From Clostridiales bacterium (lineage in GTDB: Bacteria; Bacillota; Desulfotomaculia; Desulfotomaculales; VENG01), in contig JADQBQ010000001.1 of the NCBI GenBank assembly GCA_016278505.1, forward strand, positions 1 through 64,000: DNA of 64,000 bases, read 5' to 3'. Positions 11,544 through 30,264 of this stretch are shown here, in pieces. Below the pieces are notes generated by a model. That model was given only the letters and a program-made list of their open reading frames with translations, searched no databases and had not been told where the DNA came from. Within the stretch, counting starts at the first letter, position 1; every line of letters begins with the position of its first letter. Made by a program: the position numbers and the translations under genes.

Positions 11544-12290
11544 TTATACCCCGCCACAAGTAGGACAGTCCGGAGTCCTTTCCACATCTACATTAAAAAA
11601 TTGCATGGATAACCCATCATAGGTTAAGATTCTTCCGGTGAGAAGTTCCCCCAACCCTATCGAATACTTTATTACTTCGGTAGCAATGATAGAACCGATT
11701 ACCCCGGGCACAGTACCTAAAACCCCCTCTTCCCGGCAGGTAGGTGCATTGCTGTCCGGCTCGCTGGGAAATATACAGCGCAGGCACGGGGTGGATCCGG
11801 GGATTACAGTCATGGCTTGCCCCACAAACCCTAACACCCCCCCGTACATATACGCAATACCATAGCGCACACATGCATCGTTAATAAGAAAACGAGTAGG
11901 GAAACTGTCGGTTCCGTCCGCCACAGCGTCATATCCTCTGATTTTATCCAAATAGTTTTTTTCGGTTAATCTTTCCCGATACTCTATTACTTCAATACCC
12001 GGGTTGAGCTTTTTCAACTTTTCTGCTGCAGACTCAACCTTGGGCCTGTTTACATCCCCGGTCCAGTGAATGATCTGGCGTTGAAGGTTGGAATAATCCA
12101 CATCATCGGCATCCATGATTCCTAATGTGCCGACCCCGGCCGCAGCCAAGTAAAAGGCAATAGGTGAGCCCAGTCCTCCGGCACCTACCACCAACACCTT
12201 TGAATTTAATAATTTTTGTTGCCCCTTAGCCCCTATACCGTTAAGTAAAATGTTTCTATCATAACGAAGGAGTTGGTGTTCATCTAACAT
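11544..12290 (-). CDS. moeB: MoeB/ThiF-type E1-like adenylyltransferase
   Basis: A 248-residue HesA/MoeB/ThiF protein, expected to adenylate the C-terminal glycine of a MoaD-like sulfur carrier for molybdopterin synthesis. ATP motif GAGGLGSP, DRNILLNGIG near the N terminus, and two CxxC zinc pairs (CLRC, CPTC) are present. ATG at 12290 is chosen over 12308 for its GGAGGTGAGGAG site. Last gene of the AOR2/Moco operon. ThiF or another carrier activator is possible, but the context and a MoaD-like gene upstream favour MoeB. Confidence 0.87.
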   Translation of the reverse strand: MLDEHQLLRYDRNILLNGIGAKGQQKLLNSKVLVVGAGGLGSPIAFYLAAAGVGTLGIMDADDVDYSNLQRQIIHWTGDVNRPKVESAAEKLKKLNPGIEVIEYRERLTEKNYLDKIRGYDAVADGTDSFPTRFLINDACVRYGIAYMYGGVLGFVGQAMTVIPGSTPCLRCIFPSEPDSNAPTCREEGVLGTVPGVIGSIIATEVIKYSIGLGELLTGRILTYDGLSMQFFNVDVERTPDCPTCGGV

Positions 12291-27959: not shown

Positions 27960-28125
27960 ATTCATCTCCAAAGCAACAAACGAATTAATTTTACTTCATA
28001 TTGCCATAATATTCATATAGGTGATTTGCGTTACTGTTATTTTTGCAATATGGAAACGGAAGATATGCCCAATACTAAAAAATGACTTACATTGATTACT
28101 ATAACACACTGAAAGGAGACTATAA

Positions 28126-29111
28126 ATGTACCAGACAATAATAATAGGTATGGGCCCGGCAGGGCTTACAGCAGCAGTTTACGCAGCAAGAAAAAAATGA
28201 AGGTACTTATGTTGGGCAAGGAATACGGGGGCCAGGCCTCATGGACCAGTGAAATTGAAAATTACATGGGCTTTCAATATATAAGCGGCCCGGAGCTGAT
28301 GAACCGTTTTGAAGAACATGTAAAAGAATACCGAGTGGAAAGAGATCTGGCAGAAGTAGAGAAAGTCACGCAGTCCGGCAGTGTTTTCACTGTTACGTGT
28401 AAGGATGGCACGGAATACCGGTCTCAAACAGTAATTATAGCTGCAGGAAAATCTCCGCGCAGGCTTGATGTGCCGGGAGAAAAACGTTTCACAGGGAGGG
28501 GAATAAGCTACTGCGCAGTGTGCGATGCCCCTCTTTTCGGAGGAAAGAAGGTAGCCGTGATCGGCGGGGGAAATTCGGCGCTGGAAGCTGCCTATGACTT
28601 AACAAACATAGCTGAACATGTTTATGTAGTATCCCTAGAGGAATGGACGGCCGACGAGGTTCTGGTGGATAAAGTAGAGAGTGCCGAAAACATGACCAAG
28701 TTGATAGGCTGGAATACCACCGGCATTGACGGTGGAACCATGGTTAAAGGGGTTACTTTGCAATCAGTCACTGACCCGTCACAGGAAAAGAAATTAGAAG
28801 TGGAAGGGGTGTTCATAGAAATAGGAACGATTCCTAACAGTGGAATAGTAAAAGGCCTGCTGGAAATGAATAAAAACAAGGAAGTTATTGTAAACTGCGA
28901 TTGTACTACTTCTGTTCCGGGGGCTTTTGCAGCTGGAGACATAACAAACATCCCGGAAAAACAAATTATCGTTGCTGCCGGTGAAGGTGCCAAGGCCACT
29001 CTTAGCGCATACAAATACCTGTTAAGACTGGATTCCGAGCCCAAAGCATATTTTCACCATATTGACAAAACGGCTAATGAACACCAGGGTCAAGGGTTGC
29101 CGTTACATTAA
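28126..29111 (+). CDS. Thioredoxin reductase/AhpF-like flavoprotein, split by a -1 frameshift at A7
   Basis: ATG 28126 (GAAAGGAG upstream) encodes the FAD motif IIIGMGPAGLTAAVYAARKK and then hits TGA at 28198. The rest (304 residues) continues in the -1 frame from 28197. It has redox motif CAVC and nucleotide motif GGGNSALEA, then GAFAAGDI for FAD. After GGGNSALEA the arginine-rich HRR motif of NADPH thioredoxin reductases is absent; VVSLEEWTADEVLVDKV is closer to the AhpF pattern, hinting at NADH. A_AAA_AAA (28191-28197) directly before TGA fits programmed slippage, mutation or a sequencing error. Confidence 0.8.
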
Positions 29112-29128: not shown

Positions 29129-29341
29129 ATGCTGGATGATTATACCAGATTTAAAGCCAATGACGAAATAGCATTACTCACTGCCATTTCCATGACGGAG
29201 GTAACCGCCAAGAAAGCGGAGTTATACCAGGGACTAGCTACAAACGCGGAAGTGAAAAATTTCTTTGAGCGGCGGGCAGCACTAATGAGGAAAGTAAACG
29301 ACGGTATCAGAAAACATTTGGACAAACTGGGGAGGACTTGA
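29129..29341 (+). CDS. Small unknown helical protein
   Basis: Not recognised. 70 residues, charged and probably two long helices (RFKANDEIALLTAISMTEV, then a basic second half). ATG preceded by AAGAAAGGGG; starts 17 bases after the flavoprotein stop, so likely cotranscribed and possibly linked to it. Confidence 0.65.
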   Translation: MLDDYTRFKANDEIALLTAISMTEVTAKKAELYQGLATNAEVKNFFERRAALMRKVNDGIRKHLDKLGRT

Positions 29342-29364
29342 TAAAATGCACGATCTTGATATAT

Positions 29365-29448
29365 TGTCATTCTGAGTGCAGCGAAGAATTTGAGTATTTT
29401 TGCGGCTTTTAAGATTCTTCATTTCACTTTGTTTCATTCAGAATGACA
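29365..29448. repeat. Foldback of the CATTCTGAG type
   Basis: TGTCATTCTGA (29365-29375) pairs perfectly with TCAGAATGACA (29438-29448); GAAGAAT (29383-29389) pairs with ATTCTTC (29414-29420) inside. It resembles a dispersed hairpin family seen in several bacterial phyla. Confidence 0.75.
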
Positions 29449-29541
29449 CGAATCTGGACTTTTTCAGCAGTCCCGGACGGGTCCTCTTGTTTCCTTGTTT
29501 AAAAGGATTGTTTGGGTCTTGGCTTATGGGTCTTTTTTCTT

Positions 29542-30212
29542 TGACAGGATTACAGGATTTGCAGGATGCTTTAGGGTAGTGCTTTGGGGTCTTAAAAAAC
29601 ATTTTTAAATTATTTGTTTTAATATTTTGGACTGGTCCATAAGCTCTGTTTAGGTAATAAAGACTTTCGATTGTATTTTTGTATTTTTTTACAATCCTGT
29701 ATATCCTGTTAATCCTGTCTAAACTCCCATGAACCATATACACAAACTAGAATGAAAATATGTTTCCAAAAATAAACATCTTGGGTCGTCTTTGGGGCCA
29801 ACCAACTTTTGACAGGATTTACAGGATTGATAGGATTGATAGGATAAGCAATGAAGTTTATCTGGCAATGGAATTATTAATAAATACTTTCATTTTGATT
29901 CATCTCATAAATATAAATCATTTTTTTTCATTGTTTTCAATTAATAGTGCTCTTTTAGAACCATGATGTATCTACGCTCTTAAGTAATGATCCTGCTCAA
30001 AAACAATCCTGCAAATCCTGTTAATCCTGTCAAAAAACGACCCTAAAGGAATACCCCAAATGTTTTCCCAAAAGGAATACCTAAGATCTTCTTATATCAA
30101 AGAACCGTAAGAACGCATGCAAAAATCCTATATATCCCGGGTATTTTCGTAAAAAAAATTGTTTACCCCAAAGCCTCACATGCAAAGCCTTTTACCCCGC
30201 TTATCCCGTCAA
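29542..30212. repeat. Repeat-rich intergenic region with AGGATT-type clusters
   Basis: No believable gene in 29342-30264. Clusters of the 9-bp-period ACAGGATTT repeat occur at 29542-29567, 29692-29721 (reverse), 29810-29848, 30004-30032 (reverse) and, decayed, at 30124-30212. Next to the second cluster is CATGAACCATATACACAAAC (29730-29749), a reverse copy of the sequences found at 60266 and 62852. Confidence 0.8.
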
Positions 30213-30264
30213 AACATTTATTTTCGTAAAAAAACTGGCCACCACCACCGGACGGTTTTCCTTG

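Follow-up and report, generated by a model that had tools for sequence, protein, structure and literature searches.

The window, a 64,000-nucleotide stretch of DNA from a Clostridiales bacterium (contig JADQBQ010000001.1, assembly GCA_016278505.1), contains a flavoenzyme gene that is split between two reading frames at a run of seven A residues touching a TGA codon. This locus raises the question whether the run is a programmed −1 frameshift site, as the title of the preliminary description suggested, or the mark of a broken gene. The evidence below very probably points to a one-base break, arising by mutation or as a lone consensus error, that left the slippery heptamer behind as a by-product.

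Layout and identity of the interrupted gene

The break lies in a conserved gene and is really present in the given sequence (Table 1). The 5′ ORF begins with the ATG at 28126, for which the upstream AAAGGAG is a good ribosome-binding site, and its 24 codons (MYQTIIIGMGPAGLTAAVYAARKK) end at the TGA at 28198-28200. The A run is phased AGA AAA AAA TGA, placing an in-phase A_AAA_AAA heptamer, a genuine −1 slippery sequence, at the frame junction and directly against the stop. Already open ahead of the junction, the −1 frame holds an ORF of 304 amino acids whose initial ATG (28197-28199) overlaps the TGA in a stop-start arrangement of the ATGA type. The split reported earlier, with GMGPAG in a 24-codon ORF and the remainder of the flavoprotein in the −1 frame, was thus confirmed.

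Table 1. Positions in the window of the features of the interrupted gene.
Feature	Positions	Strand	Basis
Ribosome-binding site AAAGGAG	28112..28118	+	Direct reading
5′ piece: 24 codons including the FAD-binding GMGPAG loop, then TGA	28126..28200	+	Sequence reading, profile match
Seven-A run (A_AAA_AAA) abutting TGA; one base was probably lost here	28191..28197	+	Sequence, orthologue alignment
3′ piece in the −1 frame: predicted rest of the thioredoxin-reductase/AhpF-like flavoenzyme; CAVC redox pair at 28512-28523	28197..29111	+	ORF, profiles, structure alignment

The 24-residue 5′ piece matches positions 1-22 of the Pyr_redox_2 profile. The match of the 3′ piece to the same profile begins at position 39, and its match to TIGR01292, a thioredoxin reductase model, begins at position 27. 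Taken together, the two pieces cover residues 2-302 in alignments with solved AhpF (closest chain 1fl2) and, almost as fully, with thioredoxin reductases. The motifs follow the order FAD glycine loop, CxxC and NAD(P) motif, with GMGPAG in the 5′ piece and CAVC and GGGNSA in the 3′ piece. Judged from these matches, the broken gene encodes a predicted thioredoxin-reductase/AhpF-like flavoenzyme of ordinary type, to which no named equivalog is assigned from the 3′ piece alone. With thioredoxin reductase and the C-terminal part of AhpF it shares the glycine loop, the CxxC redox pair, the NAD(P) motif and a length of about 300 amino acids. It differs from them in that its frame is broken at codon 24 and that its 3′ piece taken alone scores under the curated equivalog cut-offs (271 bits against 343 for TIGR01292, and 283 bits against 503 for TIGR03140).

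Directly 3′ of the broken gene lies a 70-amino acid ORF (29129-29341) with its own ribosome-binding site, for which no Pfam or NCBIfam match was obtained and no lookalike was seen by eye among the listed ORFs 3′ of the orthologues. The stretch that follows (29360-30260) holds no convincing genes and many copies of words such as ACAGGATT and AATCCTGT, together with a GTCATTCTGAG-type repeat; it looks like dispersed repeats.

The junction in orthologues

The comparison covered 20 orthologues, of which eight belong to the same order and twelve come from named records. Their identity over the downstream part is 44-64% (n = 20), with one other genome of the same family (G001), included in the order set, at 64%, and the named records, among them Desulfofundulus, Pelotomaculum and members of other phyla, at 44-57%. 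A single continuous frame crosses the junction point in all 20 (for example YAARKNLSVLMLGKQYGGQ and YAARKKLSTLLVGKQYGGQ), where the residues are YAARKKL, YAARKNL or similar, and the two pieces of the window gene align to these relatives with neither a gap nor an extra residue where they meet. The preliminary description had proposed asking whether relatives keep the A7-TGA context, and had named uninterrupted relatives without an A run as a refutation; none of the 20 keeps that context, and every one is uninterrupted, which argues against the programmed slippage of its title. One orthologue (L016) has seven A's at the junction point and yet reads through in an uninterrupted frame, so a shift does not follow from the run by itself. 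A direct search of 113 genomes of the order for the motif with an in-frame TGA after it gave a single hit, the window gene itself.

In the genome of the same family the orthologue follows a DUF711 gene, and in the window the same DUF711 gene sits two genes upstream, a shared neighbourhood that supports common descent of the two genes. The 3′ piece of the window gene is changed at one of 58 otherwise invariant columns (intact orthologues range from 0 to 5). By this comparison it is undecayed, as expected for either a recent mutation or a consensus error. No second copy of the region was found in the genome. The genome has three homologous flavoreductase genes at other loci, all of them open, and an insertion interrupts the orthologue in another genome of the order, G042 (L017 about 2090-2400, G042:C1). 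The inserted element has inverted ends, GTAAGCGT...ACGCTTAC, carries a run of N inside and has GAAAAAAA on both of its sides. Because homologues are open in the one genome and the orthologue is interrupted in the other, we infer that loss of the gene may be tolerated.

Mutation or consensus error

We propose that an ordinary flavoenzyme gene, intact in relatives, has lost a single base within or beside an early A run. Translation from the normal start would then end after 24 codons, and the heptamer at the stop would be a by-product of the base loss and not an evolved signal. Any full-length protein would come only from low-level, unprogrammed slippage, by which some such protein is possible. 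Antonov et al. (2013, PMC3711429) assign lone frameshifted genes with intact homologues to indel mutation or sequencing error. The window gene resembles these singletons in its lone break in a single genome, in its uninterrupted homologues elsewhere, in a site that is not conserved, and in a frameshift backed by sequence and by matching domains on both sides. It differs from them in that its site happens to be a slippery heptamer, which makes a low level of leaky read-through possible. The break is of an ordinary kind.

The chance that the break is a genuine recent mutation, a one-base deletion, stands at about even; both the deletion itself and its recency are what we infer from the comparison with relatives. 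The sub-case in which the chromosome is intact and the consensus merely dropped one homopolymer base has a substantial though less than even probability. The homopolymer site, the undecayed state of the rest of the gene and the draft status of the assembly (56 contigs) favour such an error, but the assembly is not generally damaged. About 251 gene stretches of the genome (240 kb) match relatives intact, and just two indel breaks other than that of the window gene withstood inspection. Since neither of these lies at a long homopolymer, general homopolymer damage is not indicated, and the idea of an error-ridden assembly was not supported. In addition, 69 runs of exactly eight A's occur within ORFs that stay intact in a sample of 1,009 intact ORFs from 1.41 Mb of the genome.

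The two other breaks, with labels assigned from reading the sequence, are in a putative ComEC-like metallo-hydrolase gene, where the frame changes near VAHHGSS (L125 about 11700-11740; G000:C27 about 203.7 kb, − strand), and in a putative transposase gene about 1.8 kb from it.

Frameshifting, slippage and restart at the junction

The preliminary description had listed slippage, a recent indel and a homopolymer error as its options; the indel and the error stand, and programmed slippage is not supported, as relatives are uninterrupted and no stimulators were found. Under programmed −1 ribosomal frameshifting, the gene would have come to depend on a frameshift recently and in this lineage only, and slippage at A_AAA_AAA would keep full-length flavoenzyme at a low level. 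Such a function is not supported, and we regard it as very unlikely. In its favour are the canonical in-phase heptamer, the stop immediately after it and the open −1 frame, and a published test measured 10% frameshifting at a seven-A cassette (Antonov et al. 2013, PMC3711429). Against it stand not only the absence of the site from the orthologues and from the rest of the order, but also the failure to find stimulators: RNA 3′ of the stop shows no stronger folding than shuffled sequences do (z 0.36 to 1.41, in a model of pseudoknot-free folds), and no Shine-Dalgarno-like element was seen in the bases directly before the run (CAGTTTACGCAGCAAG). The loss of one base, moreover, gives the same arrangement automatically. 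Bacterial programmed −1 genes with A-rich heptamers, mainly IS elements, likewise have an in-phase A_AAA_AAA and a nearby stop. The window gene differs from them in its unconserved site, in the stimulators that were not found, and in being of metabolic type, with relatives that do without a shift.

The A7-TGA motif is by itself unremarkable in this genome, because it occurs 79 times in 3.92 Mb (against 46 for the reversed control) and because in-frame A_AAA_AAA is present in 163 copies in the 1,009 intact ORFs. All 79 A7-TGA sites of the genome fell within the sampled DNA and were screened by ORF length, and six of them besides that of the window gene were inspected. At these six the −1 ATG starts the next gene, or Lys-Lys-Met lies inside one open gene, or the frames are short and unremarkable; none is a split gene, and a genome-wide class of such genes was rejected.

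Transcriptional slippage, which would add an A to the messenger and so restore the frame, is more improbable still. The A run does sit at the break, and longer runs are known to rescue genes, as with the eleven A's of tssM (PMC4256274). The run in the window gene has only seven, and the length from which bacterial genomes, in a large proportion, show evident selection against slippage is nine (PMC1088944). Least probable of all is a two-part gene, in which translation restarts at the ATG of the ATGA overlap and the 304-residue piece works alone. Missing from that piece are the first strand and the glycine loop with which the FAD-binding fold begins in every relative, no Shine-Dalgarno motif precedes the overlapping ATG, and relatives carry one continuous ORF at the junction. 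Reading the TGA as selenocysteine was rejected, for the frame after it (RYLCWARNTGARPHG...) is unlike the relatives and the −1 frame is like them.

Separately, HdrA- and MvhD-like genes contain in-frame TGA codons (G000:C52 about 162926, 164536 and 102555; L115 about 3976) at positions where relatives read on, as in LDCSA*ISTPKM and FCCHY*AYSAADLA. These codons likely encode selenocysteine.

If the site of the flavoenzyme gene were programmed, frameshifting would be setting the amount of a redox enzyme, which would be unusual. For the one-base break that we favour, the locus carries a caution. Codons of the Arg-Lys-Lys-Met type that lose one base in or beside the A run yield AAA AAA TGA automatically, so the coincidence of heptamer and stop carries little weight. 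A heptamer touching a stop is the expected product of a one-base loss in or beside a long A run, and the motif alone is thus no evidence of programmed frameshifting.
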